DNA from: Nymphaea colorata
Lineage: Eukaryota > Streptophyta > Magnoliopsida > Nymphaeales > Nymphaeaceae
Length of the DNA: 64,000 nucleotides
Assembly: GCF_008831285.2 (NCBI RefSeq)
Contig: NC_045145.1
Coordinates: forward strand, 13,824,802 to 13,888,801
Direction of reading: 5' to 3'
A model generated the notes under the pieces. The model was not told where the DNA came from. It did no database searches and saw nothing but the letters and a program-made list of their open reading frames with translations. The first letter of the stretch is position 1; each line of letters starts with the position of its first letter. Below are positions 6,495 through 62,000 of this stretch, one piece after another. The position numbers and the translations under genes were made by a program.

Positions 6495-8317
6495 ATGGAC
6501 GGTGGTTCTCCCATTTCCGACAGCCTCCCTCTGAAAGCAGCGCCACCACCATTGATGATTCTTGCCTACCTCAGGGTCGCAGGCCATGACCAAGGTCGCC
6601 CCAAGTCCTGGCCTTCCATCTCGGAGGTACTGGTTGTTATTATTCGTTGTTGTTTATTGTTATTACGATGCTTAGTTTTATATTCCTCTTCTTTCATCGC
6701 ATCGCTATATATTATGCATTTGTTTTTGTGTCTTTTCCTCCGCGCTCTTTTTCTTGGCTTCCTGCTTCTGCGGAGCTCTTTCCGTAAGCAATTTTCATGG
6801 TTTTTATGCGAGTTCTGCTCCTCTTTCACCAGGTGGTCGAGGAGATGAAGGAGATGTGCAAGATTGGAGGGCCTATGCTGGTAGTGGGTCTCATCTTCTA
6901 CGGCAGAGCGGCCGTTTCCATGCTGTTCTTGGGCAGATTGGGGAAGCACGAATTGGCGGGTGGGTCTCTGTCCATTGGCTTCGCCAACATCACCGGCTAC
7001 TCCATCCTTTCCGGCCTGGCCCTCGGCATGGAGCCCATCTCCTCACAGGCCTTCGGCGCCAAGAGGTATTCCCTCATGTGCCTCACCCTCCAACGCACCA
7101 TCCTCATCCTCCTCGTCGCCTGCCTCCCCATCTCCCTCCTCTGGCTCAAGATGAAGCCCATCCTCCTGCTGTGCGGCCAGGACCCAATCATCACATCCGT
7201 CGCCTCTACCTACCTCGCCTTTTCCCTTCCCGACCTCTTCTTTCAGGCCGTTCTACACCCACTCCGAATCTATCTCAGGACGCAGGGCATCACCCGGCCC
7301 CTGACCCTCACCGCCGCCCTGGCTCTGGTCCTCCACATCCCCATCAACCTCTGGCTCGTCCTGTACATGGGTCTCGGGGTTAGAGGGGTAGCCCTATCAA
7401 TGGTGGTCACAGACTTCAACTTGGTGGCCTCCCTTTTGGTCTACCTGTGGTTCTGTGGGGTCTGTGGCAAGGGGTCGTGGGAGGGTTGGTCCCTGGAGTG
7501 CCTCAGGGAGTGGCGGCCCTTGCTAAGTTTAGCCATACCAAGTTGCGCGTCGGTTTGCTTGGAGTGGTGGTGGTATGAGCTCATGATAATCTTCTCGGGC
7601 CTACTCTCCAACGCCAGCGACGCCGTGGCCACAATGGGCATCCTCCTACAGACCACCTCCCTTGTCTACATCTTCCCTTCGTCTCTAAGCTTGGCCGTCT
7701 CTACCAGAATTGGCAACGAGTTGGGGGCCAACAGGCCTAATAGGGCCAAGGTGGCCATGTTCGTGGCCGTCTGCTGCGCCTTCATGACTGGCATCATGGC
7801 CTTGACCTTCACCACGACGCTGAGGAACGTGTGGGGCTGGGTGTTCACTAGCGACAGGGGCATTGTGGCCTTGACGGCTAGGGCCATGCCCCTGGTTGGC
7901 CTCTGTGAGCTGGGCAACTGCCCTCAGACCACTGGCTGCGGGGTTCTCAGAGGCAGCGCCAGGCCTTCCCTTGGTGCCCATATCAACCTTGGCTCCTTCT
8001 ACGTCATCGGCATGCCTGTGGCCCTGCTTATGGGGTTCGTGGCCAACTTGGGGTTCCTGGGACTGTGGCTGGGCTTGTTGGCTGCTCAAGGATCCTGTGC
8101 CCTGCTCATGATGTGCGCCTTGGCCAAGACTGACTGGGCTCTTCAGGCGAGCAGGGCTCGGGAGCTGACTGGTGGAGCCGTCGATTGCAAACCGGTCAGG
8201 AAGGTGGTCAGCGAAACCACCAAGATGAGTGGATCCAATTCCTACAAGGTTGAAGTTGCCGAGATGCTTGAGAGGGCGCCTCTCATTTCCATCAAAGTGG
8301 TGCAGCCAAACGATTAA
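6495..8317 (+). CDS. MATE family efflux transporter (DETOXIFICATION type)
   Basis: The predicted mRNA joins 6495-6626 and 6833-8317, giving 538 residues. The 206-nt intron has a GAG|GT donor and a CACCAG acceptor, phase 0, and splicing reads WPSISE-VVEEMKEMCKIGGP across the junction. Starting at the ATG at 6797 inside the intron would lose the N-terminal region. The product is a polytopic membrane carrier; MATE proteins have 12 helices and export organic solutes in exchange for H+ or Na+. Family landmarks include ELAGGSLSIGFANITGYS (about residues 80-97), HPLRIYLRTQGIT (about 175), CLEWWWYELMI (about 280), FPSSLSLAVSTRIGNELGA (about 325) and LCELGNCPQTTGCGVLRG (about 400). These match the plant subgroup that includes Arabidopsis ADP1/DTX51 and relatives, linked in the literature to organ initiation, iron homeostasis and stress signalling. 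The substrate cannot be inferred. Exon 2 is GC-rich compared with its surroundings. Confidence 0.93.
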
Positions 8318-41060: not shown

Positions 41061-41107
<47 letters not shown>

Positions 41108-44659: not shown

Positions 44660-45076
44660 TCTCCCATCGACAAATTTTATGGGTCCCACCGGTTTGCTTT
44701 GATATCTCGGAGCTCGTCATCACTAATTAACCCCCCCTCGCGGCCAACTGGCCCAAGGCCTGATCAGATCAGTCTAGCTCCCAAGAATTTCAATCAAACT
44801 TGCCCATCCAAGAATTTCAATTCTGCTTGGATTCCGAAACTTGTAGCTTTTGGAAATCATTAGTACAAAAGAAACTGGTGATCTATTGCGCGTCGATGTG
44901 TATGTAATGCATATATCGGTTTACACTTTTGTGGTCAATCGAAGGGCAGTATGCCATTACCACGAACATAAGTTCTCATTATTAGTTTCAGTAGATACAT
45001 CATACGGGACCATACCTTTTAAGCTAGATAAACAACAGCCACGCTAAGAACCAGCCAGGCCACCGGCTTGGCAACC

Positions 45077-45082
45077 TTTATT
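45077..45082 (-). terminator. Poly(A) signal, unit A
   Basis: AATAAA on the minus strand within CCTTTATTCATAG on the + strand, 55 nt after the stop of the broken copy. The surrounding sequence is shared with units B and C, so the 3' UTR was duplicated together with the gene. Confidence 0.6.
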
Positions 45083-45136
45083 CATAGACACAACAGTGCT
45101 CAACTTTAAGACGACAGTAGAGCCGAAAAGTATAGA

Positions 45137-45220
45137 TCAGGGGCAATACGGAGGGCCGCTGCCACAGTAGCCATACTCACAGCAGGAAAAGCTGGGATTT
45201 ATCCTCTTGCAAAACAACAT
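45137..45220 (-). pseudogene. Hevein-like peptide pseudogene (truncated)
   Basis: The minus strand translates to a 27-residue remnant, FCKRINPSFSCCEYGYCG followed by a GPPYCP end and a stop. It is clearly related to the intact copy at 49299-49520, which has the same KINPSF segment. The signal peptide and the N-terminal cysteines are gone; sequence upstream of the ATG at 45220 does not continue the homology. The core has lost the chitin-contacting Ser, and spacing is CC-x4-C instead of CC-x5-C. The 3' flank and poly(A) signal survive, so this is a dead member of the cluster. Confidence 0.8.
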
Positions 45221-48200
45221 GAAGTATTGCAGCTTAATGTCAACAGCTTTTGGAATTTCTTTCGGACCTACTCTTTGTTTCTACTTCCATAAAAAAAAGA
45301 CTACCTTTTGTGATTTTCTAAATAGAAAGTTTAAACATCAAATAAACGCCTTGATGTGAAATTTTGTTAATTACTTGAGGCACCGCAAGGGTTGGTTACA
45401 ATTTTTTTTCGACATTAACATGACTCCATCTCCAGATCACAATATTATTTGCATGGTCGTAGCCGAGATGTCTTGTTTTTCGTATTAATGGAAGTAGCTA
45501 GCGGAGAAGTTTATACGTTATGTGTTAACCTTGTCACTGGAGCTTCCCAATGTGTGTCAGAGAGGGAGCCTTCACATTCTTTCCTCCTATGCCCATGGTA
45601 CAAGGCCCTAACATTGTTCTTGTATAAAATAAACCTGAGTTTCATTGTTCCACGCTTCGTACCAATCCTTTCCATGCACCTTTCTGATTTTTCACCAACC
45701 ATTCTTTAGGCGACCATACTTCTTGAAAATCTCCTCGAGGTTGAAGCACAATGACTTTGCATGCATGGAAACGCGATTATGTCTTTTTCGAAACGAATCC
45801 AAACAGTTTGTGTTATTAAGATATTGTATGAATATTGAATATAAGATATTTAATTAAAAATATCTGTGATCTGAATCCGAATTCCATTAGAAATTTTTCT
45901 TAAACCCAATCCGAATATGACGAGATGTTACGTTTTAAAGTTAAGGCAATCTAAATTTTTAATTCGATGTCACATCTTTTGCCTATATCCGAATTTTTTG
46001 GAAGCGGTTTTGTCAGTTTCAAAATCGGATTTATGACACCCCTAACTGGAAGCAAAAATACCTGTCCATTTTAATTGTTTAAATATTTTGGATTCAAATT
46101 GAATATTGAGTTATATGTGAATCCTTGACACCCTGATGTGTATGTGAGGCAACTGTGGATTAATTGAGCTGTAGTTGGAAGGTGAAAGAGATGACCCGAT
46201 TGCCCATGACAATGAAAACTGTGCTTCCATGAAAACTTTTGAATTTACCGAGTTCACAAGCGATCTCGAGTTTAAATTGTATATGAAGCCTTTCTTGAAT
46301 CGCATGAAAAGTTTGGTGTTCTCTTTGGTTGACATGAAAAAACTTGAATTGTTTGATCAATAGCAGAATTGCCATCAGGTCCAAGTTTTTCTCGACACAA
46401 CAAAAGACAGATGGCTTCAATGGCTTGACCAATTGGAGACTATGCTCATTGGGTCGGGGTGCTACAGAAGGTTCATCAACTCCCACTGCCATTATATCGA
46501 ATGTTGTATGATGTTCCTGTCCATTTTTTGCTAAGTTATAATTGATGGTCCTTCACTGCAAAAGAGCAATTCCGATGAAGAATATCAGCTTGTGTCGTTA
46601 CAACGGTGAGAAGCATCAGGTTATAGATTCATTAGCGTGAACGAATCACTAGCATGGGTCTATACCTAAGGGCGGAGTCAGGATTTTTCTTAGAGACGGG
46701 CCAAACCATCTGCTGATCGGGCCAAGAGGAGCGGCGGGTCGGGCCAAATAAAAAAAAAAATTGATTTTTTACACATAATTTTTTTTTTTTCTGGGCCAAG
46801 TACAAAAAAAATGTTATCTTTAGGTCAAGGGATGAGAAAAATGCTCCTCCTCTACCAAAGGGGGTTGAAGACCTTACTATACCATTTGATATTACATTAC
46901 ACTATACCAGTGATCACGAACAACCAACAGACTACTATACAGGTGAGTTTTCCATTGCTAAAGATCAATTTTATCAGAGGTATAGTTCTTCAACGGTGAG
47001 AATGTTCACCCTTATAGTTCCCCCTCGGAACACCATTCTGCTCTGATTCTTAACTTTGTAATTGTACTTATGAAAGTTGAAGATGTAATTAAATGCGAAC
47101 TGCAGGTTAAATTTGACCAAAATCAGCGTTCGAATCGTGTTCTTTTTATGCAAGAACGAGTCGCTTCAGTTGATGGCTTCTTTTTGCAATTGTCCATTGT
47201 TGACACTCAGGCGATTCAAGAAATTACTGCTGATTATCAGGCTATAGTAATTACGGCTCTCGAATACTGCCCCCAACTTTAGCATTCTGTAAAAATACTG
47301 GAGTTAAGTCTCCACCGCACTTGGCGAGAAACTCAGGCAGTGTGAGCTCGCTCTTCCGATGATCTTCAACTCCCATTGGGTAATAGATAACCCTGATATT
47401 GGACCGGACCATCTGAAATAAACCCGATACCGTAACTCCTACCGACCCACAACTCAAATCTGATTAAAAATTTAAAACAATTTAAAAGTGATGGGAATTC
47501 TGGAAACTTGTGCGCAATCTTGTAAGTTGAGGAGTAAATTAAGGTGTGGTTGCCTCGAGGGTTGAGCGGCAACGTTGTGGTAGCTGTCATGCTTCGTGGT
47601 GTTAGCTTCCTTAAGCTGCAAAAACAGCATGACACTCAAGTTGAAATATGTATTGTAAGTCTACTTATTAGCAAGAACCTTGAAATTTCCTAGGTGAACC
47701 ACTATTCGTCTGTTTTCCTTTTGGCAACTTGCATGCCGCAACTTTTTCTTATTGACACTGAAGCAGTGGGTGAGGGCAACACTTTAAGGAGTCTTAGTCT
47801 GTTGTTGCCCACTTGCAGATGAAATTTTTGTAGCTAAATTACATAAACATTTATTAAGTTGCCTCTTTTGAAACGGAGCATCAGCTCTTTTCTTTAACAT
47901 ATATTTAACCGATCACCATGTTTTGAAATGTCCAAGTGTTTGTTCTTGAATGACCTTATGCATATACGAATTAAGTTTAAGTTTTTAATGATTTGCAGAT
48001 CATAAAGATCTTTTTCTATATTTAAACACCGACTTGGAAGCCACCTGGTTAGAATGAATTGTAAGGAGAACTTTAAAATTTGTTTTCTAAAACATTTTGA
48101 TTTCATAAAATTCGTACATAAGGTGTCATTTATTTGTAGATGATACCGGCTTGCATCGACGACCCAGACAATGTTTTTTGCCAGTTTTCTTGCAGCGCAT

Positions 48201-49238
48201 CTTAATTTCCACCAGTAGCTCCTTACTTGGTGATGTTTCTTTGCAATTTCTTAGATCAGAATGAGAAATCTGCGACGAGAATTGACCAGTATTTTTCGGT
48301 AACCTGCTCTATGTTTTTGCTAAAGGGAGAGCAAATTCTTATGGTTGAAGGCAACGACCAGCCAGAAGGTTGTGCTTAGAAGCTGGATGTAGACTCAGCC
48401 ACGAAGCTCTCCTGTTAAGAAAAGACGGAGGAGATGATCAAGATGATGTCGCACAATCTCCATTTCCCTGACCAAGATGGGAGACCAAGATGTTTGGTAG
48501 CTACGGAGGTCAGGTGTTTGGCATGGAAGATGAAGGTCCCGGCGGTCACTGGTTGTTTTGTTCCGCTATCAGAACGCAATAAGCAAACGAAAGTCCTTTC
48601 CACATCTATTGTGACTTCCGGTGTCATGACAAAGATCTTTAGTGTGAGGAATAAACTGCCGTTCAGAAAAACAGTGATGAAGTTCTTTACGGCTTCCTCC
48701 TTGGAGACACCATCTCCCATTGACAAATTTTATGGGTCGCACCGGTTTGCTTTGATATCCCAGAGCTAATCATCACTAATTAACTCCCCTTAAGGCCAAG
48801 TGCCCCCAATGCCGGCAAGGCTGATCAGATCCGAGTAGCGGTACCAAGCATTTCAATGAAACTTGTGCATGATTTTGCAGAAAGCGGATCAATAAGCAGG
48901 TGAGACATATTCGCTTGTGTTCCTTTCCATTTTCCATTTTTCTTCTTCTTATTATTACTACTTCTAGTGCGGGCTTCCGTTTTGAAATTAATGACTTGTA
49001 CAATGTTTAACCGATCCAATTCCAACCTAGTTTTATTAGTCCCGGCGGTGCGAAAACTTGCAAAATTAAATCCCAACTCCGAAACTTGTGGTCAATCGAA
49101 AGACAGTATGCTTATTACAACAAACATAGGTTCTTATTACGAGTTTCAACCAACAGATACATCATACAAGACGATACCTTTTTAGCTAAATGAACAAGAG
49201 GCACTCTAAGAACCAGCTAGACCACCGGCTTGGAAACC

Positions 49239-49244
49239 TTTATT
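49239..49244 (-). terminator. Poly(A) signal of the unit B peptide gene
   Basis: AATAAA on the minus strand, 55 nt after the stop codon at 49299. Its context matches units A and C. Confidence 0.65.
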
Positions 49245-49298
49245 CATAGGCACAACAGTGCTCAGCCTAAAGACGATAGTAGAGCTGAAACTTAAAGC

Positions 49299-49520
49299 TC
49301 AGTGGCAATACAGCGGGCCGCTGCCACAGTAGCCAAACGTACTGCAGCAAAAACTGGGATTTATCTTCTTGCAAAAGTCCGACGAGGTGCAGCATGGCCC
49401 CGCCTGGCAGGGCCCTAGGTTTTGAGCCTCTGCACCAGGCGTAACAACTGCCGCTGTAAGCACAAGAAGCGCCACCATGATCAGAAGCGGCGCCGCTGCA
49501 CCCGACCTTCTTCCCTCCAT
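49299..49520 (-). CDS. Secreted hevein-like cysteine-rich peptide (unit B)
   Basis: An intronless 73-residue precursor. Residues 1-32 are a secretion signal: MEGRRSG, a hydrophobic stretch (LLIMVALLVLTAAVV) and a likely cut after GAEA. The mature part of about 41 residues has eight cysteines, C-x4-CC-x5-C-x7-CC-x5-C-x6-C. The end, CCSTFGYCGSGPLYC, matches the chitin-binding core of hevein with its Ser and three aromatic contacts (F, Y, Y). The two last disulfide cysteines of classical hevein are missing, and an extra cysteine motif (GPCQAGPCC) precedes the core. Hevein-type peptides bind chitin and act against fungi outside the cell. A minus-strand TATA-like box lies at 49644-49652 and a poly(A) signal at 49239-49244. 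Function is inferred from the core motif only. Confidence 0.85.
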   Translation of the reverse strand: MEGRRSGAAAPLLIMVALLVLTAAVVTPGAEAQNLGPCQAGPCCTSSDFCKKINPSFCCSTFGYCGSGPLYCH

Positions 49521-49643
49521 CTTAGATGTATGATATGGCCCCCCTTGCCTTCTTCCTCCTCCTCCTCCTCTCTCCCTCTCCCTCTCCCTTGGGGTTGGAA
49601 CAAATGCTCACTCCGTTGCCGTTCAGTACCTTTCCAAGCTCAC

Positions 49644-49652
49644 CTATTTATT
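49644..49652 (-). promoter_or_regulatory. TATA box of the unit B peptide gene
   Basis: AATAAATAG on the minus strand, 124-132 bp before the start codon. The same nonamer lies at the equivalent place in unit C (52417-52425), so it has been kept after duplication. The CT-rich leader between the box and the gene is also shared. Confidence 0.6.
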
Positions 49653-51996
49653 GAGATTAAGAGCAGGGGCAGCCCGTGCTTATCAACTTGGTGAGGCCAA
49701 CCGGGCACTGATATGTTGAGTCATTGTCGTGTCGCTAGTGAACAATTTTCCACGCTTCGCAACAGTCCTTTCTGATCTTCACCAGCCACTCTTTACTCGA
49801 CGACATTTCTTGGAAATTTCCTCGAGGTTGAGGCACGACGAAACAAGTTCTCCTGGTTAATGGGCATGGCTAGCTAGCTAGAAAATTAACATTTCCCCTC
49901 CATGAATCTCTAATTTTGTGATCATGTTCTTCATTCCATCACCAAAGAAAAAATGGAAATTAATTAATTGAGAACTTGGCAGCACAAAGTTTCACTTGGG
50001 AATTTAGAAAAGACCAATTTGTTGAGGTCGGGCTGGTAGGGCACAATCCAATTTCTCAATCAGATGCCGCAGCTTAGATCGATCGGAAGCAAATCTGATT
50101 TCTTTATCGGATATCACATATTTTTTTCTACGTCTGAAGCCTTTTGTAGGATTCAAACAGGATTTAGTGACACTCCCAACTGGATGCAAAAACTCTTGTC
50201 CATTTTAATTTGCTTTAATATTGTGGATTCAAATTGAATATTAAGTTGCATGTGAATCCTTGACACCCTTATTTGTATGTGAGATAACTGTGCATTTGGG
50301 AGTGTGCTCTGATTCTTAACTTTGTATATTCTTCTCATCAAAATTGAGGACGTAATTAAATGCCGAAGTGCAGGTTAAATTTGACCAAAATCAGCGTTCG
50401 AATAGTGTTCTTTTTGTGCAAGAATAAGTCGTTTCAGTTGATGGCTTCTTTTTGCAATTGTCCATTGTTGACACTCCGGCGATTCAAGAAATTACTGCTG
50501 ATTATCAGGCTATATAAAGCCTCGATATTTACTGCCCCCTAATATAGTACTTTCTACATTTAAACACTGAGTTGGAAGCCACCTGGTTAGAATGAATTGT
50601 AAGGAGAACTTTTAAATTTTGATTCTAAAACATTTGATTGCATAAAATTTGTACATAAGGCCCCACTTATTTGTGGCCTTCTCAAAGAAATGACACCGGG
50701 CTTAATTGCATCGACGACCCATACAATGTTGTTAATGCAAACTTTCCACAACTTTTTACCAGTTTTCCTGCTGCCCATCTTCCTTAATTTCCACCAACAG
50801 TTCCTTACTTGGTGATGTTTCCAGAATGAGTCACATTCGATTCTGCACCAAGTGTTGACAAGTCTTTTTGGTAACCTGCTTTATTTTTCGGCTAGAGGAA
50901 AAAAGATCTTATGGTTGACAGGCAACGCAGTGTTTCTGCTACCGACTCTCCTTTTAGGAGATCATACTTGACACTTGGTTTGTTCAACAAATCCGAACAT
51001 ATGGATGATTTCAGCATAGTTCATTTAGTTAGAACCTGTCTTCGCAATTTTAGCACCCGGTCTGTATAACAAGTTCCTAGAATATATGATACAGATGACT
51101 GTAACTTTTAAGAAGAGAATTATCATGTTTTTGCGGAAAAAATGAATGGGAATTTGACAATGAATCAATTGTCCGGAATTCTGATCATTTACTTAAATAA
51201 TGCATAAGTGTGACTTTCAAAAGGATGTGAGCTTAGTTGGAATGTAGGCTAGGAGATGAGAGAAACAAGAAACTTTTAATTTGCTTGACTTGGGAGTTTG
51301 ATGACATGTTTCAGTTTCTATGGACAGTTCATGTGATCATGTCAAGTCTCCAAAACCTCGCTTTAGTGTGTTTAATTTCTATTCACTACTCTCTAGTCAC
51401 ATTTGAACCCGTGAGAAGTTCCTTCTCAAGAAATTGCAGTAGGTTTCGCTTCCCTTCTCAATTTGGTGGTTTTGGTAATTCTCAAAAATTTTCTCTCGAA
51501 ACTTTTCCTCTTTCACTTTTCGCTTTGGGTTGATGTCCAGTCGACCCTTTGTTCCAGGTTGCTCTCAATCTGTCGTCAAGCTTTTTTACACTTCATTCTG
51601 TCCAAATGAAGATCAAACCGTTCATGTTGAACTGCTTAGGAAACGCCCTTGGTCCAGTCAGTGAAGATCAAACAGCTACGACTGAAGGACTTTGAAGATG
51701 ACTTAATTTGGTCCAGCAAATTGAAAATGCTTGTCAACTAGCTTAAAGGGATTTGCAGGTGATGAATGCAAGCATGTTCGCGTAAATCGTAAGATACGTT
51801 TAATTAGCTAGTAATTGTATTGCTTCATACTTTAAAATTTTGCTACCAATTGGAGAACAACATGCCATTTCCACAAACACATGGACTGTTACAAGTTGGA
51901 ACAACAAGATATACTTTTTCCTTTCTTTCTTGTTGACGGTGAATCTTCAAAAAGCAGGCACTGTAAGGACCGGCCGGACCAGCCAGATTGGCAAGC

Positions 51997-52002
51997 TTTA
52001 TT
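51997..52002 (-). terminator. Poly(A) signal of the unit C peptide gene
   Basis: AATAAA on the minus strand, 54 nt after the stop codon at 52056, within the shared 3' flank. Confidence 0.65.
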
Positions 52003-52055
52003 CATAGGCATACCACTGCTTATTTAGCGTAAAGACGATATTGAAGCTGAAAAGC

Positions 52056-52298
52056 TTAGGGGCAATACAGAGGGCCCCTGCCACAGAAGCCATACTGACT
52101 ACAGCAAAAACCTGAACCTAAGTTCCGGCAGTCCACACGGTTACCACCTTTTGGGCCGCAGCATGGCCCCTCCTCGCAGGGCCCTCTGTATCGAGCCTCT
52201 GCACCAGTTGTTACAACTGCCGCTACAACCACTACAAGCAACGCGATGATCATAAGCGGCGCTGCCGCCGCTGTCCTCCTTTCCTCCCTTCCCTCCAT
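52056..52298 (-). CDS. Secreted hevein-like cysteine-rich peptide (unit C)
   Basis: An intronless 80-residue precursor. The start MEGREERRT and a long hydrophobic stretch (LMIIALLVVVVAAVV) form a signal peptide, with a probable cut after GAEA near residue 35. The mature part of about 45 residues has eight cysteines spaced C-x4-CC-x9-C-x7-CC-x5-C-x6-C and is rich in Gly and Arg. The core CCSQYGFCGRGPLYC is the closest of the three to classical hevein, with the chitin-contacting Ser and aromatics Y, F and Y. The start is fixed by the MEGR start shared with the paralogues. It lies in line with the unit B and D genes on the same strand. A TATA box (52417-52425) and a poly(A) signal (51997-52002) are seen. 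An antifungal or chitin-binding role is inferred. Confidence 0.87.
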   Translation of the reverse strand: MEGREERRTAAAAPLMIIALLVVVVAAVVTTGAEARYRGPCEEGPCCGPKGGNRVDCRNLGSGFCCSQYGFCGRGPLYCP

Positions 52299-52416
52299 CT
52301 TAGGCGTATGATATGGCCTCCCTTCCCTTCTTCTTCCTCCTCCTCTCTCCCTTTCCCCTGGGATTGGAATGAATGTTCACTCCTTTCCTTTCCGTGACTA
52401 TGGCTAGCTAGCTATC

Positions 52417-52425
52417 CTATTTATT
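52417..52425 (-). promoter_or_regulatory. TATA box of the unit C peptide gene
   Basis: AATAAATAG on the minus strand, 119-127 bp before the ATG, equivalent to the unit B box. A TTGAC word sits directly beside it on the + strand (ATTGACG), which resembles a W-box or TGACG element; any role is speculative. Confidence 0.6.
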
Positions 52426-54434
52426 GACGTTACGAGCAACAAGCTGTGGCCGGCCAGCCTGTGCTTATTATCTTGTCCCCTCGAGTATACTGTAGATTAT
52501 TTACAATTTTTTTGGGGGGAAAATGTCGGTTCCAAAAAGAACATGAATACCCTTTTGTGATTTTCTTAATTAATAAAGGTTTAGACATCAAATAAACGCC
52601 TTGACGTGAAAGTTGGTTAACTTGAGATGCAGAAATCGTTTGAATTTCGATAAATATTACTCCATCACTATTGCTCCACTAAATTACAATATCGTTTTCA
52701 TTGTCTTAGCTGAGGTCTCTTGTTTCTCAGATTAATGCAAGTACACTTGAGGCGGAGTGGAGTTTACATGTTATGTGGAAAATGGGAGAGAGACACTGAT
52801 TTATTTGATAATTTTGATAAAAGTGTGGCCTCTGTTAAGAAATTACAAAAAAAATAGTATACATCAAGGATTGAAGACTTTAAAAATTTTGTATGCCATA
52901 AAATTCTATCTCTACATTAAATATTTCTGGCTAAAGACCGCCTACGATTGCAACCCCCTCTCAATTATTGGTGGCTCTTCCATGGGAATTTTGTGGCTGG
53001 GCCTGGGGGGTCCAACGATAACCAAGTCAGTGTCGGTAGGGGGAAATTTCCACACTACCCGACGCATATCTGTCTCCCACCTTCCTAATTTCCACCAACC
53101 ATTTCCATCGAGATTGAACCACATTTGATTCCGCATCGGAAATATGATTGTCCTTTCGATAACCCTATTCTATGTTTTGGTGGTGCAAAAAAAAAAAGAG
53201 GGAGAAGCAAATTCTCCTGGTTGGTGGGTAATGGTTAGCTAGAAAGATTCGTGTTTAGAAGTTGGAAAAAGTCCAAGCCACGAATTTCTAATTTGTCTAG
53301 GAAACAGAGTTAAAAGATGTTGATCTTCATCCCATCACCGAAGACAATGGAAATTTAGAACTTGGCAGCGAGCCACAGAGAGTAAATGTTCATTGGGAAA
53401 CCGATCGTTTTTTGTTAAGGGGGCGATCGAGGCTGGTAGGACGGAATGAACCATGTTAAAGTGTGCTTGAGATCGATGGCGATGCACCAAGTGCAAGCTC
53501 GTCTGTATGCAGTGGGCAGAATCAGAATTCTGAATAACTAGGTTAGGCACCAGTTGGTTGAACAAATCCAGATGGGAGGTGGGTAAATGCTACAAGGATA
53601 GGATCTCAGTTACTACTATCATTGAGGATGTAAATCCGCACTACAAGTTAGATTTGACAAGAAATAGCATTGTAAGAATGAGTCTCTTTCAGCTTGCGTA
53701 TTTTTTGTAGCTGGTCATTGTTCATACTCCGGCAATTCTAGACATTACTGCCGATCAGGCTGTAAGGTTTCGATGTTTACCGTCCTTTGCTTTACTCGCA
53801 CTCTGTAAAAATTCAGGAATTATAATGAAAAAAAAAAGGAAAATAATTTCTTTTTTGTTTTTATCGCTTTGACGTTGTTAGAAAAAATGGTATGTTTTAA
53901 ATGGCATACTTATTTCTCGCGTTTTATACACGTTTTTTTCTTAAAAAGGATGAGTTTTTTGTAGTCGTAAATTGAGGAGCAAACATGACCAGGTGCTATT
54001 TTTTCTGTTTATTCCCTTTATTGGTTCTTCCGTTTTTCTTAGGAAACTGGTTTCACATAATGTTTGGGCGATCCAATTTCCTACCAAAGGCGAAGGGAAC
54101 TTGCGCAGTTCCACTCGAACCCTACTCCTAACATGAACATGTTTCTTCCAAAAAACCTTCAAAAAGAAACCGATCGTGATCAATGGCCATTCAAGCTCGC
54201 AACAGAGCCAACGTCACGACGTTACTACAAACACAAAAGGAGCTATATATATATTCCACACTGCTTTGAATGAACAACAGCAAGGACTAGAAACGCTTAA
54301 CGGGATTGCTCCTCCTAGAGAGAGTGAGCCCCGACGGCGCCATTAGAGACATCATCATGCCACCTTCAGTGGCATCTTTTATAATCATAGGCACAAGACT
54401 GTGTAAGATAAAGGTGCTATCGCAGCTAAAAAAC

Positions 54435-54674
54435 TCAGCCGCAATAGTCACGGCCCAGGCCACAGTAGCCATAGGGGCTGCAGCAAAATCTAGGATCTAA
54501 GTTCTTGCAGTTCACAGCGTAACCACCTGGGCGTCCGCAGCACGGTTTCGCCGTCTGGCACGGCCCTAAAGGTTGAGCCTCTGCAGCAGGAATAACTACC
54601 GCCGCTACAAAGACCATCAGTGCCACCATGACCACAACCGCCGCCGTCGCCGTTCTTCCCTTCCTTCCCTCCAT
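54435..54674 (-). CDS. Secreted hevein-like cysteine-rich peptide (unit D)
   Basis: Taking the start at 54674, where MEGRKGRT aligns with the MEGR starts of the paralogues, gives a 79-residue precursor. The frame is open further upstream to 54740 (101 residues), but that extension is acidic leader sequence and not a signal peptide. An adjacent ATG at 54677 is equally possible. A hydrophobic segment (VVVMVALMVFVAAVV) and AEA form the signal. The mature part has eight cysteines, C-x5-CC-x9-C-x7-CC-x5-C-x6-C, with the core CCSPYGYCGLGRDYC keeping Ser and three Tyr for chitin contact. Neither the AATAAATAG box nor a canonical AATAAA in the 3' flank is conserved here, so control may differ from units B and C. 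An antimicrobial role is inferred. Confidence 0.85.
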   Translation of the reverse strand: MEGRKGRTATAAVVVMVALMVFVAAVVIPAAEAQPLGPCQTAKPCCGRPGGYAVNCKNLDPRFCCSPYGYCGLGRDYCG

Positions 54675-55795
54675 CATAGCCTCCTCTTCTTCTTTCTCCT
54701 CTCGGCTTCCTTTCCCTTGGGATTGCGAAAATATGCTCACTCCGTTCAGGCAACAATTTAAATCGTTCTTTGCATGTTGTTGTAATGAGACAATTTTTTT
54801 TTGCAGTTATTAATTTAACCGATCACCATGTTTTAAAATATCCAAATTTTGGTTCTCATGAAGACAGTTTCAAAGATTGAAAAGTTTTAAAATTTTGCGG
54901 GTCATAAAATTCTGTTTCTACATTCAAACACTGATTTACAAGCCACTTGCTTAAATGAAATGTAAGAAAACTTTAAATTTTAGTTTCCAAAACATTTTGG
55001 TTGTGACTTCCTATGGAAATGACAGCGCGGCTGCATTGACCGCCCAGTCAATGTCATTATCGCTCGTGCAAATTTTCCACGACTTTTCTTATCTGCTTTC
55101 TTGGTGCGCATTTTTCTTCGGTAGTTTTCCACAACTTTTTACCAGTTTTCTTGATGCGTATCTTTCTTAATTTCTAGCAATAGCTCTTTACTTGATGAAG
55201 TTTCCTTGCAATTCCCTAAATCAGAATGAGTCACAGTGAATCTGTTTTATTTTTTGCTGAAAGGGAAGCAGACTCTTCTGGTTGATAGGCAACGACTGAA
55301 CGACTAGCTAGAAGGTTATACTTAGAGACCCTGACATTCCTGTTAAGGAAACACGAACGAGAAGATCATGATCCCGATTCCATCAACAAAGCAAATGGAA
55401 TTATTAAGAACTTGGCAACAAATATATGAATATTCCTTTAAGAATTCGTTGCAGATATAATTGTTTAGATCGGTAGCCGGTAGAGTTGCGCAGATTAAAC
55501 CACATTAAAGCTGATCCTCTGCGATTTCTCACAATGGGCCGAGTCCAACCTCATGTCTACAAGACTACAACGGCATCAGCTTATACGTAGAGGGGCAGAA
55601 CCAGTAACCTGAAGAACACCAGATACTCCGATACTATAAAGAGGAGAAGAAACAGATTAAAGGAAACAGTTGCAGATAGCAATTTGAACGTCTGCCCAGA
55701 GATTCGTATGTAGGAAGAGATAACCGTTACATCAGATGGGAGAAACCTGTAAAGATAGGAAGGGCGTTATGGAACATAATATTGTTATTCTGTAC

Positions 55796-55955
55796 GGTTG
55801 TTTGGCGACAGTAACAGTTTGCTATATTTCATGAACCTGTCCCAAAAATTAAGGAATATTTATAGAATACTACAACACAGTGTTTGATGAATTTGTCTCC
55901 ATCTTTGGGACACATTCATGGAACAGTAACAAACTGTTCCTGTTACCAAATAACC
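55796..55955. mobile_element. MITE with about 26-bp terminal inverted repeats
   Basis: The left end starts GGTTGTTTGGCGACAGTAAC and the right end finishes CTGTTACCAAATAACC-like (55930-55955). About 21 of 26 positions are complementary. The symmetry continues inward: CATGAACCTGTCCCAAA against the complement of TTTGGGACACATTCATG. The whole element of about 160 bp could fold into one hairpin, as non-autonomous DNA transposons do. I did not find a clear target-site duplication, so the superfamily is open. Confidence 0.6.
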
Positions 55956-57269
55956 CTTATCTTTTGCTCTAATCTCACATTTCTGTTGCACTATCATTTC
56001 CAACTTAGTCTTTTGCTGAACCTTCAGATTTTCGTTTCTTATCGATACCTGCATTATCCGCATAACTTGAGCCAAATACTGCGACATAGAGTCTCCATTG
56101 TTTTTCTTTCTTTTTCTATCCCCATTGGTCCAACGGAGAGAAGTCACAAGCAAGTTCATCTGAGCTTCAAGGTGGAGCCTGCACTTGAGATAGTTCTGTT
56201 CATGGTGAGCACATCCCTGTCCTGCCTCATTTATGGCTCTGCCACTGGGCTATTTAAGCTGAACTCTAGCCCGCTTGTTCACAACTTACATGAAAAAGAT
56301 GAAAGTTCAAACTTGCAAGTTACTTCAAATTGCAAAATGGCATGTCAACCAAATAAAGACATTATCTTTTAGGGTCTTTTCTTCCAATAGACAACGGAGC
56401 AGTGTGGCCCTGGATCCTTATGGGAGCAGCAGTAAAGCCTCAGAGCTTTCCTCAACCTCAGAAGTACTAGATATCTTTGCATACGCCATACTGATCATTA
56501 ATTTTCGGCCTTTGATTCCCATCCCTTGGGCCGCAGGGGGTTCATATCCCTCAGTGGGTTACAGTATCCTTAACAACACAAAATGGAATTCAAATGATTC
56601 TGGTGGGAAGTTCGAGCCTTAAAAGTTTATTATCCTGGGCATCACTTTGCTGCCATCAGTTACATATCAGGATCAACTGCCGAGGTGAAGTTTCGGATTT
56701 GAATAATGTAGACAAATGGTTGAGTCACATTTAGTACAGTTGAGAAAACCATTATCCTGGAAACCATTGCGACGCCATTTACAGCTTCATGGCCAACGCC
56801 TCCATGATTGCAGTGGGATTGCTTACAGTTCAATTACAGGAAACTACTCAGTTGCCTGAATGAGAGTTCCCTTGTCCCTGTTCTGGTACCATTAAATGGA
56901 CTACCACTGAGAGGGCATTTGGCAACGGGACCGATCTCAGCATATTTCATTTTGTTAGAACCAGTCTTTGCATTTTGGGCGCCCAGTCTATATAACAATT
57001 TCCTACAATGTATCATGCAGATAACTGTAACTTTTAAGATGACATTTACCAGGTTTCTGTTGATAAAATGAATGGGAATTTGACCATGATGAAATGATCC
57101 TGTCGTCAAGCTTTTTAGACTTCATTCTGTCCAAGTGAAGATCAAACCGTTCATGTTGAACTGCTTAGGAAAAGCCTTTGGTCCACTCAAGCGAAGATCA
57201 AACAGCTCATGCTGAAGGGTACATTGAAGATGACTTAATTTGGCCCAGCAAATTGAAAATGCTTGTCAA

Positions 57270-58383
57270 CTAGCTTAAAGGAACTTGCAGGTGATAATGT
57301 CAAAGGTGCTAAGAGGAAGAATGGGTCAAGTCCTAACCCTGACACTGTATATCTTCTTCGGCCATCAAACACGCCCCAAGTAAAAGGGTAAAACTGTAAC
57401 TAATTATTGCGCTGGCGTCTGGATTGTGGGAACAGTTCCCTTGCAAGCGTGTGCTGCCTGTCCAGACAAATCGCTGCAAATGAAATTTCACACTACTATT
57501 GATGTGACAGTACACGCGAGTCCTATTACTAATGACACCAGCTTAATCGGCACATCCAAAAAATTTGTGAAGTTTAAACACCATGATGCAAGTATTTTTC
57601 ACCTTTTAATCAATATCTTTTTTCTGACTTTATGTCAAATATATATTACTTTAATAAGAATAAATAAAAATATATTAAAATAAGGTATCTTGCAGCTTGC
57701 AGATCAGCAACCGGGCATGTCAGCTGATGCCATTGAAGACCCATAGGGTGTGCTCACTGTAGTAGGCTGGCGCCTGTCTTGGCTCCGTAGGTGTGCCAGA
57801 CTTGTTTGTATTATTCCTGTTCATTGGGTCAATTCCCTGTTTTTTTCTCAATATTTGGCCGTCGCCTGAGCCTGTTACTTATTTGCTCCATCCTGATTGT
57901 GCTTGGATGGCTCAGTTTTATTTCTTCATGTTAGTGGTTCCTTTGGATCGGTTCTTCTGAGCAAAGAAACTGTGTGCTGTAATAGAAAAATAATTCTTAT
58001 CGGGGCTGCTTTATAATTTATATTCGATATGGTTCTAGCATAGGCAATCCCTCAAGTTTTATAAGGAAAGATTGTATGAACTGATTTGCACAATTCAGGT
58101 ATGTGCTTCCGTATGTATCTAACTACCAAAGTTGAAATTTTGACTTCAAGAAAAATGATTTCCAAAACCCGTGGCAAAAAGTCATCAAGCAAAGACATTC
58201 CATTTGAATTGCTGATCAGAACTCTCCTCCTAATGTTGTCTGAGCAGTAAAAACAGCATTTTTGGTTGTGGAATACCCACTAAGAAGAACAATGCCAACA
58301 TGAGAAACATGAAGATCGATGTTACCTATACATAACAAGTGCATCATCCTGATCAATGTTTCCCATTCGAGGCATGAAAGGCC
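57270..58383. other. Intergenic, no gene recognised
   Basis: AT-rich sequence between the last cluster unit and the first gag fragment. The frame at 57426-57683 has no recognisable family. Part of this stretch may be decayed sequence from the retroelement whose gag starts at 58935. Confidence 0.45.
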
Positions 58384-58935
58384 TCATAGCTCCAACCCAT
58401 CCAGCGCAAAACGAACTCTGTCTTGGTTGCACATTGGCATCTGACTGGCAGAGAAGGAACCATTGATCAAGTCCTTTTTCATTTTCTGAAGATGATCACG
58501 CAATTGCAGTGGTTGGCCCTTGGGCTTGTCGTTTCCACTGAACATCTCTGCAAGAGCGTCCCAAACTGCTTTTGAAGTACTGAAGCCTGCTACATCAGAA
58601 AGAACAGATTCATGGAGAGTGGTTTGAAGTACCCTCATAACATATTGATCTGTCTGTCGCCAATGGGTGTGGGCGGGATTGAGGATCAGCTCAGAGAGAG
58701 AAGAGAGAATTGAGTCACAGACTTCCGCCGAAATGATCAGAGGAGGTGCTGAAATCGATCCATTCACGTAACCCACGAGGCCTTGAGAAACAAGAAACGC
58801 TACCATCTGATTCCGCCAGTCCTTGTAGTTAGTCCCATCGAGTTTTGCAGAGACAAAGCTATCAACAGTAGTAGCTGAGACGCTGGAGACAGAAACAGAA
58901 GATGAAGCAACAGCAGGAATCGATAAAAAGTCCAT
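58384..58935 (-). mobile_element. Copia-type gag fragment 1 (truncated ORF)
   Basis: A 183-residue open frame from MDFLSIPAV. It has the Copia gag N-terminal signature KLDGTNYKDWRNQM, GYVNGSI, a NPAHTHWRQTDQYV segment, TSKAVWDALAEMFSG and LRDHLQKMKKDL. It ends ALDGLEL and a stop about where functional gag proteins have their L-GGL segment. The zinc knuckle and protease, integrase and reverse transcriptase are absent downstream, and no LTRs were found. The frame stays open to 59082 upstream, but MDF aligns best with the start of the second copy. Likely a decayed retrotransposon; a host gene derived from gag is possible but unsupported. Confidence 0.75.
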
Positions 58936-59082
58936 TAAGAAAGAAGAGAAACAGAGGGGGCACAGTGAGAGAGAGAGATTATGCGCTGTATTGGGAGCTG
59001 CAGACGCAACTGGCTCAAATTGGCAGGACCGCAATCGTAATGGCCACACCTTTATGCACCTGCAATTGGCATTTATAGCCAC

Positions 59083-62000
59083 ATAATCCTACCAAACTAG
59101 TGGGCACAATGCACAGAAGACCTCCTTATGGGCGCATTGTTTTTTCTCATTGTAAAGATTGGCAGGCGCTAGGCAGACTAGGGATGTAAACGGATGGGAT
59201 ATATTTGATTACTGATGTGATCTTGCATCCACCTCGTGGAATTCAATAATGAAAAGTAAGTTTTAACTATTAATTGAATTCAGCTTCACTATGCAAGTCG
59301 GGTACCTGACTGGGATCTGATAAATCTGTAAGCATTGCATATGCATGTTGGATCTTTTACCAGTCGGTTTTAAATCTATACCTGATTTTTTGTACGAGTT
59401 TGTTTTTTTACAAAGACCAATTAAGCCAGGTCTGAACGCATTCTGAATCCAAACTACACGTATTTGTAGGCAGAACCCAATCAGTCCATGTTGTTTGGAA
59501 ATTTTGATCTTTCAACTTGTTGGCACCGTGGGACAGCAATGCTACTTCTGCCTTGTCCCCAAATCTCACTTGCTCTGGCTACAAGTTTCATTAGTGCTAG
59601 CTGATAATGACAATGTATTGCCACTCTGCACACAATATAGAGGTGCGAATCGTTCGGGATATTACTTATTCAATTCAAGTAAATTTGACAATAAATTTCC
59701 AATCCTATTCATAATTGAATTGAAACTATCTACATGATTTTTCTTTTTAACTGGATCTGAATATAAACCTTATCTAATTCCATTTTATATTCTGTAGATA
59801 TGAATCCAACCATGCAATAGATCAAATCAATCGAATCTAGTAACACCAAACATCCAGTCAGACATCAAACGGACGCCGCTATTTCCAATAGTGGAAAGGA
59901 CCATGGTCACACTGACAGCTCCGCCGGTGGCATTACAATTAACGACGGCGACGTTGAGACGTCGATGGCACCATCACACCAAGCCCACTTGATCGCCGAA
60001 TGATAGGTGGAGGTGAATAGCGACGAATTAAATTACATCAACGGTGTTGGTCATGGAAAAGTTTATGATCCGATCCGCTTTTTTATCTAAAATCTGATAT
60101 CGTAGTGCTCACATCACCCTTATCTTCACTCTTTTCCTAAAAAATTCATGCTTTTCAATGCTTTTTATTGAATCAAACCGCACAAAAACTAATTTAATGG
60201 CAGGTTGACCTGATAAAGAACGACGCTCACCTCTTCATTCTTGGGAACTAAGTTGACGGGTGAACTTTGATTTCTCAAGAGCACGATAAAACCCGTAGAT
60301 GTTCTGAAAGAAGCTGTATAACTCCTAGGAACACAACTACGAAATTGGTTGATAAAAATGAGGACTCGGCAATTCATGGGTACCATCTCAGCTCAGGCAT
60401 TAATCGCCCACTTGCTGCACCCGCGGGAAATTAATATTGAAGAAATTTACATTTAAGGTCCAACTTTTCTACCACGATTGCGATTACAGATGTTGTGTCT
60501 TTTTAGTTTCGCTGCGCAGGCTTTTCTTCTTCGAAATTGATCACGGAGAAAAAAAAGAGTAACACGATGAAAGCTGTCCGGTGTTTAATTTCTGTAAACA
60601 AAAGCACGACTTTTAATAGGTTGGAAAGGTAACTTGTAAGGCCGAACTTTCTAGACTATGTTAAAAGATGTGCTCCTACATGGAAAGCTCCCTAAAATTC
60701 TGACAGATGAAATCTTTGGAAGATAGTTCATTGTCATGGAACAATACATTAACTCCAGCCATTCAACGCGTTGTTATCAGGAGCAGACATGACCTTATCG
60801 ACGCAGTCAAGTCTTGAACTGTTCACATTTGGACATAAAAGTATATTTTATATATGTGTGGCTCACAATAAAACTTGTCATTGGTTTGGATGATTGGCTC
60901 AGCATATCTGCCGGTGGCCTGTAGGCAGACCAGTTGGCGCCTTGTTTCTCTAACAGTGACAAGCCTACTTGGAGATAGATCTGTTTGTTCTCGCTGATCA
61001 TGAAGGTACCTTCTCCCCTCGAAATAATTATAGTTCAAATAAGACATCCTACGTACTGTAACCCTTTGCTAATTTCTTTTAATTATGTTAGAGCAACCAA
61101 CTGCAGGCATATCAAAGCCCCAAAATCACGTAGATGAAAAAGAAAACAAAATCCTAACATATATAGGGAAGAATCAAATGCCCAAACATACTTACATATG
61201 CCTGCATTTACTGAGGAGGCCAAGATTACACTGTCAATCGAAGAAATTAAAGATGGTAGAACAGAGTTTCAGTTTTTATTAACATGGGGATCGACATTTG
61301 TAGAATAAAAAATTGACATGATTCCCAGGGAGTCGACTTGCACATGTTAATTGAACTATTTTATGAACCAGTCAACAGACCATGGGAAGAGAATAATGTG
61401 GAATTTCCAAGGACGATGATGGTTCTGTCACCTAAGCTTTTTTTTTTTTTTTTTCTGAAGGGAGTGTAAATGCAACGCATTTAGAATGTGCATTATGTAT
61501 ATGAAATCATGCTAAATACAGTTCGAGAAAAGAAACTAAACAAGGATCTAATATTCCAATTCCAACCAAATTTAGAGTACTTTCCAGAAATTGATGGATT
61601 CCACAGTATATGGTGGCACCCACCATTGCACAGCTGTACTGTTCTTGATGGAGATGGGGCGAGTATGTACTGGGTCTGATTAGTGGAACCTCTTTACGAG
61701 GAAGGGGAACAGGAAAGCAGATGAATGCACCTCCATCAGAGGCTGAAGCTCGGCATCCTTCGAGTTGAGAAATAAAAACATTGAGGTCCACCCTCATATG
61801 ACGGCACACCCAGCTTTGACCTAGAAATGGATATTCCTTGAGCTTTCGATTGGATCAACACACCACCAACTTGGTGAAACCTCACAAGCTTGCCCTACTA
61901 GTTATTTTTCTCTTATAATTGTGGCCACAAATTTTTCGGTGGGGCTACCTGGCAGTTCTTGGTTCACAATGCACCCACTTAAATGGAGGGTTAGGTCAGG

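Follow-up and report, generated by a model that had tools for sequence, protein, structure and literature searches.

Hevein-like peptide genes of Nymphaea colorata with a cysteine plan outside the 6C, 8C and 10C classes

A 64,000-nucleotide stretch of the Nymphaea colorata assembly (C8:13824802–13888801, hereafter the window, whose numbering is used wherever no contig is named) carries a tandem cluster of small minus-strand genes, g1, g2 and g3, that encode peptides with the cysteine plan C-x4/5-CC-x5/9-C-x7-CC-x5-C-x6-C. Judged from sequence, this is a hevein-like family outside the six-, eight- and ten-cysteine (6C, 8C and 10C) plans, and it is larger than the window shows, with at least 18 places in the genome. 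The simplest reading of its cysteines, to which we give about even chances, is that the front pair is the Cys7-x4-Cys8 extender of hevein placed before Cys1, which would make the products order-permuted hevein-like peptides. An initial annotation of the window had proposed three intact genes and one pseudogene, borne out by open reading frames (ORFs) at 49299–49520, 52056–52298 and 54435–54677 and a fragment at 45137–45214. It had also described an extra cysteine motif ahead of the core; this motif is probably not extra, resembling instead a relocated Cys7-x4-Cys8 extender, as found in class IV-like chitinases and in the wheat germ and Arundo lectins, that now stands at the front.

In a six-frame search of the window the plan matched exactly g1, g2 and g3. 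None of 50 mononucleotide shuffles of the window yielded a match, which rules out a chance origin by what is a mild test. The family cysteines, numbered a1 to a8 in order of sequence, are present and invariant in all 14 intact genes of the genome. The Ser and three aromatic positions of the core CC-x5-C-x6-C are likewise kept in 14 of 14 (8 distinct mature sequences), so that the chitin-binding core initially annotated holds, and the stop codon follows one residue past the last cysteine (hevein Cys6) in every gene, in agreement with the reported absence of a C-terminal disulfide. From the first cysteine onward, 14 of 36 gap-free columns are invariant across the 14 genes, all eight cysteines included (hypergeometric P 1e-4), and within the window trio the eight cysteines are invariant while 21 of the 36 columns vary (P 2e-4); because the sequences are related, these P values are only a guide. 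A cleaved prodomain or a hidden exon behind the stop was considered and rejected, the stop position being the same in 14 of 14 genes and no extender-like codons being seen behind it in a nine-sequence alignment judged by eye. As to the eight cysteines in about 41–45 residues first described, number and plan stand and the length is adjusted, the mature peptides having 41, 45 and 46 residues.

The g3 precursor, used as a query against the genome (407,766,735 bases, 783 contigs; family counts are lower bounds), placed the family at four sites. These hold at least 18 places in all, of which 14 are intact and 4 broken. Besides the three intact genes and one fragment of the window, C8:19.23–19.27 Mb holds three near-identical intact genes and a signal-peptide fragment (L053, at C8:19.225 Mb), C5:1.68 Mb a single intact gene, and C10:3.32–3.62 Mb seven intact and two broken copies. 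Broken copy L010 has, by eye, lost its promoter and signal peptide. L022 (L052 1519–4266, C10:3383000–3392900) has its signal peptide interrupted by about 2.3 kb, and each edge of the split carries TTGTAG; there are two copies of its 5′ part, 191 bases apart, and it has lost two cysteines, a1 and a3. The intact genes outside the window share the consensus QC(Q/E)NGPCCGxxGxxxVxCxxINxx(F/Y)CCSxxGYCGSGPAYC(G/S). The mature g2 query gave 19 places, namely 17 of the 18 family places and two hevein domains of chitinases at C2:7.09 Mb (L026/L027), which we take to be class IV-like. A genome search with the Pfam Chitin_bind_1 model scored 30 candidates; 23 rows had E ≤ 1, and this family accounts for 15 of them (including two broken copies, but not g1). 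Of the other rows, two were domains of one chitinase-like frame at C9:23.700 Mb, two were the class IV-like chitinases and one was a degenerate copy at C9:23.704 Mb. The last three were weak, and no CC-x5-C-x4-7-C core turned up when they were searched for one. From this 23-row tally, the canonical hevein domains found are therefore few, and the small hevein-core genes found are of the unusual plan. The same model, run on 14 control genomes, gave a match in one, under the cut-off. The chitinase-like frame on C9 (L028) carries two tandem canonical hevein domains, and the degenerate copy (L045) lies about 3.6 kb further.

By its core sequence, and by a fold model of low confidence, the family is probably hevein-like, and its members are probably secreted peptides of the chitin-binding type. 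In hmmscan against Chitin_bind_1 (PF00187), g3, g2 and g1 scored 29.1, 26.1 and 21.1 bits against a cut-off of 27.8, which only g3 passes; in the six-frame Pfam search 9 of the 15 family rows were above the cut-off, g2 among them (28.1 bits). A profile of eight mature peptides matched hevein proteins among all PDB chains, with 11 rows at E ≤ 1e-4 from wheat germ lectin, Arundo lectin, pokeweed lectin-C and small 6C-type peptides, followed at looser E values (up to 1) by hevein, morintide, vaccatide, EAFP and others; two of the chains at this level belong to peptidoglycan recognition protein 3. The latter protein, 2mw7 Mo3964 (E 1.9), the 6e9g antibody (E 2.7) and beta-sarcoglycan, which aligned to the signal peptide, made up the non-hevein match rows. 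A Foldseek comparison limited to 16 chains had no family outside hevein among them. Other cysteine-rich candidates, namely knottins, snakins, defensins, ginsentides and lybatides, can be set aside: none of these families is known to carry the CC-x5-C-x6-C core with these residues, and none was among the match rows (E up to 10 in one search, up to 1 in two).

The register of the profile alignments suggests where the front cysteines belong. In multi-domain lectins (15.6–20.5 bits per domain), the first cysteine of the profile lies opposite Cys7 of the preceding domain, and lectin C-Q-N-G-A-C and C-Q-G-G-P-C and Arundo C-Q-S-G-G-C-C and C-Q-S-G-A-C-C align with family C-Q-N-G-P-C-C. By this alignment through Cys7–Cys8 of the wheat and Arundo lectins, an extender-like C-x4-C is present before Cys1 (the g3 loop is x5). 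Most single-domain rows covered the core alone; those reaching past it begin at the third cysteine and put profile 8–41 on residues 3–32 of wheat lectin domain 1 and morintide, suggesting that a3–a8 correspond to hevein Cys1–Cys6. The hevein domain of the class IV-like chitinases ends GPAYCGQGCRGGPC, with an extender, GCRGGPC, of the same x4 spacing as the family, and their core is identical to that of L002 at 14 of 16 positions, versus 13 of 16 for both C9 chitinase domains, which have x3 extenders. When family loops were scored against four extender loops, the score of QNGP and QAGP was reached by 0.6% of loops with the family's own composition and by 0.05% of those composed like an average protein, and that of the weaker ENGP and EEGP by 2–3% and 0.3–0.6%, respectively; the four reference loops were picked after the likeness had been noticed, and the scoring covered x4 loops, leaving out the x5 loop of g3. 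Because the N-terminal motif resembles the Cys7-x4-Cys8 extender, we suggest that the eight cysteines represent the 8C hevein set in permuted order, with predicted bonds a1–a2, a3–a6, a4–a7 and a5–a8 equivalent to hevein 7–8, 1–4, 2–5 and 3–6. Several features agree poorly with this order: a2 and a3 are adjacent, with no linker between them, the Cys2–Cys3 loop exceeds that of hevein by three residues, and the lectin alignments place a3 and a4 not opposite Cys1 and Cys2.

Like the 8C hevein-like peptides (hevein, morintides, vaccatides, ginkgotides), several of which are cargo-free (PMC5478723, PMC5093130), the family has eight cysteines in about 40 residues, the CC-x5-C-x6-C core, and the Ser and aromatics. 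Whereas 8C peptides follow C-x8-C-x4-CC...C-x5-C-x3-C, and carry their fourth disulfide C-terminally (PMC5478723), the family has C-x4/5-C before Cys1, one residue and no disulfide beyond Cys6 (14 of 14 genes), and x9 (x5 in g1) and x7 instead of x8 and x4. The 6C peptides (Ac-AMP; structure 1mmc matches the family core), isolated from Caryophyllales only as of 2017 (PMC5478723), have six cysteines and no C-x4-CC-x9-C front, in contrast to the eight cysteines in all 14 genes, and the 10C peptides (EAFP, Ee-CBP, WAMP), unlike the family, have ten and keep the C-terminal extender. In EAFP, Cys7–Cys37 joins the N-terminal coil to the third strand, so that bridging of front and tail is possible in this fold (PMC4695807). 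In wheat germ agglutinin and Arundo donax lectin, the elements between Cys7 of a domain and Cys6 of its successor come in the family's order, and in two interdomain stretches of the Arundo lectin (6stm), CQSGGCC and CQSGACC, a CC closes the extender loop, resembling the family front. Unlike the family, these lectins have four domains per chain and keep the final extender, and in wheat lectin five residues separate Cys8 from Cys1. The N. colorata class IV-like chitinases differ in their canonical order, Cys1-x1-Cys2, and in the catalytic domain that follows.

The cysteine plan was not found in the literature on hevein-like peptides, those of Nymphaea included, a coverage outside which most subscription papers fall and which is not proof of absence; within it no paper on a circularly permuted hevein domain came up, and a text search for the motif letter strings likewise matched no paper. 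Mining of 1267 plant transcriptomes has yielded 847 motifs of potential new families (PMC7168108), and this family may be among them. The proposed new hevein-like subfamily retains its non-canonical plan, its multiple copies and a spacing not met in the literature covered, while its front motif is reread as a moved extender. Hevein-like peptides are classed by cysteine order, with an optional fourth disulfide at the C-terminus. If the permuted order is correct, an N-terminal fourth disulfide would be a fourth arrangement beside the known hevein-like classes, the hevein unit could be cut at another place, and the peptides would provide a compact cargo-free scaffold. More tentatively, with somewhat less than even confidence, we suggest that the hevein domain has here been circularly permuted in nature, with its fourth disulfide before the knot, in a form that is fixed in at least 14 genes outnumbering the canonical domains found and is restricted to this early-branching angiosperm lineage. 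Gene mining would be helped as well, since in hmmscan two of the window's three genes fall under the Pfam cut-off.

Codon models were fitted to 12 of the 14 genes (L004 and L019 were omitted, their proteins being those of L003 and L018), with the null, a ratio of non-synonymous to synonymous rates (dN/dS) of 1, fitted on a grid of kappa. From the first cysteine onward dN/dS was 0.33 versus 1 (2ΔlnL 18.0, P about 2e-5), and 0.23 with the window trio removed (P about 8e-5); over the whole precursor it was 0.65 (P 0.009), and ahead of the first cysteine 0.74 (P 0.22). The family is under constraint. For the mature part of the window trio dN/dS was 0.49, with a 2ΔlnL of 2.6 on the wider kappa grid, which is not significant (narrower grid: 3.8, P 0.05), and for the whole precursors 0.76 (P 0.20); by the Nei-Gojobori method the three pairs gave 1.00, 0.64 and 1.11 over the mature part. 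A dN/dS near 1 between copies, which together with a lack of expression had been named beforehand as speaking against the proposal, does not apply to the family as a whole, whereas the trio is not distinguishable from 1, and constraint on the window copies is evident only in their cysteines.

We propose, with about as much confidence as doubt, that the genes encode secreted, cargo-free peptides of the hevein kind with the fourth disulfide (Cys7-x4-Cys8) ahead of Cys1, not behind Cys6. The signal peptide would export the product from the cell, the Ser and three aromatics of CC-S-x-Ar-G-Ar-C-G-x4-Tyr-C would bind chitin oligomers, probably of the fungal wall, and this binding would slow hyphal growth in a presumed defence role. 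Slowed fungal growth via secretion, disulfides and chitin binding has been described for hevein-like peptides (PMC5478723, PMC4695807). The order might have originated when a tandem hevein array was cut so as to keep one domain's extender and the next domain's Cys1–Cys6 core; the two-domain chitinase-like frame L028 (C9:23.700 Mb) exists in the genome, but has x3 extenders, and no intermediate occurs in the 23 Pfam rows.

The same plan would be seen if the peptides were of the 6C type, ending after Cys6 as amaranth peptides do, with an N-terminal disulfide of their own, the likeness to the extender then being convergence in a small Gly/Pro-rich loop and the function unchanged. All 14 genes end one residue past Cys6, and 6C peptides likewise end soon after Cys6. 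The 6C structures 1mmc, 2n1s and 5zv6 match the core in the profile search, and 6C peptides have been described as 8C peptides minus the extender (PMC5478723). Nevertheless, the loop residues and the x4 spacing fit the extender better than composition-matched background, and the profile runs on through the extender in multi-domain lectins; we consider a 6C origin unlikely, if well worth weighing. In a new connectivity, a1 and a2 would replace hevein Cys1 and Cys2 as an amaranth-like C-x4-C and a3–a4 would be an inserted loop, or a1 would be bonded to a3. A C-x4-C ahead of the CC core is also known in 6C peptides, a1 and a3 were lost together in L022, and the a3–a4 loop appears to tolerate change, because g1 has shortened it by four residues. 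Yet the single-domain alignments that reach the front set a3, not a1, on Cys1, and a3 and a4 are no less invariant than the other cysteines, which leaves such a connectivity improbable.

It is conceivable, but rather doubtful, that the peptides serve as secreted signals or as cell-wall or reproductive proteins that retain the chitin-binding core, instead of in defence. Mature net charge (K+R−D−E) is +3 in g2 and g3, +1 in g1 and the C10 copies, −1 in the C8:19.2 Mb copies and −2 in the C5 copy; because it spans −2 to +3, the copies may differ in target, and the acidic C8:19.2 Mb and C5 copies favor such a role, hevein-like peptides being described as basic (PMC4695807). Against it, none of the 14 genes has lost the Ser or any of the three aromatic positions, and the copies form tandem clusters, some of near-identical members. 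Hevein holds chitin through these Ser and aromatic residues, and tandem clusters of near-identical copies are common among defence peptides. A further explanation holds the window trio to be decaying, functionless duplicates, the working genes lying on C10, at C8:19.2 Mb and on C5. In its favor, the mature dN/dS of the trio is not distinguishable from 1, the same array contains a pseudogene and patchwork flanks, and g3 is without the TATA-like and AATAAA-like stretches present in g1 and g2. Such decay is quite improbable, however: the three genes are free of stops and frameshifts, their eight cysteines are invariant amid 21 varying columns, as given above, and g1 and g2 have both TATA-like and AATAAA-like signals.

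Each of the window genes is a single complete minus-strand ORF. g1 (L006, 49299–49520) encodes a 73-residue precursor and a 41-residue mature peptide (49302–49424) with C-x4-CC-x5-C-x7-CC-x5-C-x6-C, in which the loop after the first CC is four residues shorter. g2 (L005, 52056–52298) and g3 (L001, 54435–54677) encode 80-residue precursors with mature peptides of 45 residues (52059–52193; C-x4-CC-x9-C-x7-CC-x5-C-x6-C) and 46 residues (54438–54575; C-x5-CC-x9-C-x7-CC-x5-C-x6-C), respectively. All three precursors have a basic n-region and a hydrophobic stretch that ends A-E-A↓Q or A-E-A↓R, followed by the mature peptide, the cleavage site (A-x-A↓Q/R) having been assigned by reading the −3,−1 rule. 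The pseudogene (45137–45214, minus strand), the 3′ half of a g1-like gene, retains FCKRINPSFSCCEYGYCGSGPPYCP and the stop; it is without the signal peptide and the first three cysteines, its loop ahead of the CC has one additional residue, and upstream of it lies a patch of other flank sequence.

Sequence inspection revealed the TATA-like stretch TCAATAAATAGG upstream of g1 (49643–49654) and g2 (52416–52427), both on the minus strand, and a comparable stretch lies 5′ of L002, L007, L011 and L017 in an alignment judged by eye. AATAAA polyadenylation-like signals of g1 (49239–49244) and g2 (51997–52002), also on the minus strand, fall within a 3′ block common to relatives. For g3, neither kind of stretch was found by eye in the alignment or by sequence inspection, and a bacterial promoter/terminator scan of the g1 flanks, a type unsuited to plant DNA, gave nothing. 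The tandem arrangement of the window copies, spaced at 4.16, 2.76 and 2.38 kb, is real, and the repeats in their flanks form an uneven patchwork. Identity between the upstream blocks of the g1 unit (51570–51768) and the g3 unit (57100–57299) is about 91%. A 181-base query taken from this block had two genome matches, both in the window, the second 91% identical; with a g1–g3 synonymous divergence of 0.58, these upstream blocks resemble each other more closely than the genes do. A fragment of a Copia-type retrotransposon gag adjoins the peptide cluster (58384–59088, minus strand; Retrotran_gag_3, 35.8 bits). Elsewhere in the window are a GA microsatellite at about 41063–41105 and a MATE-type transporter gene (6788–8317, plus strand) with an open frame of 509 residues that matches MatE (PF01554) at 215.9 bits.

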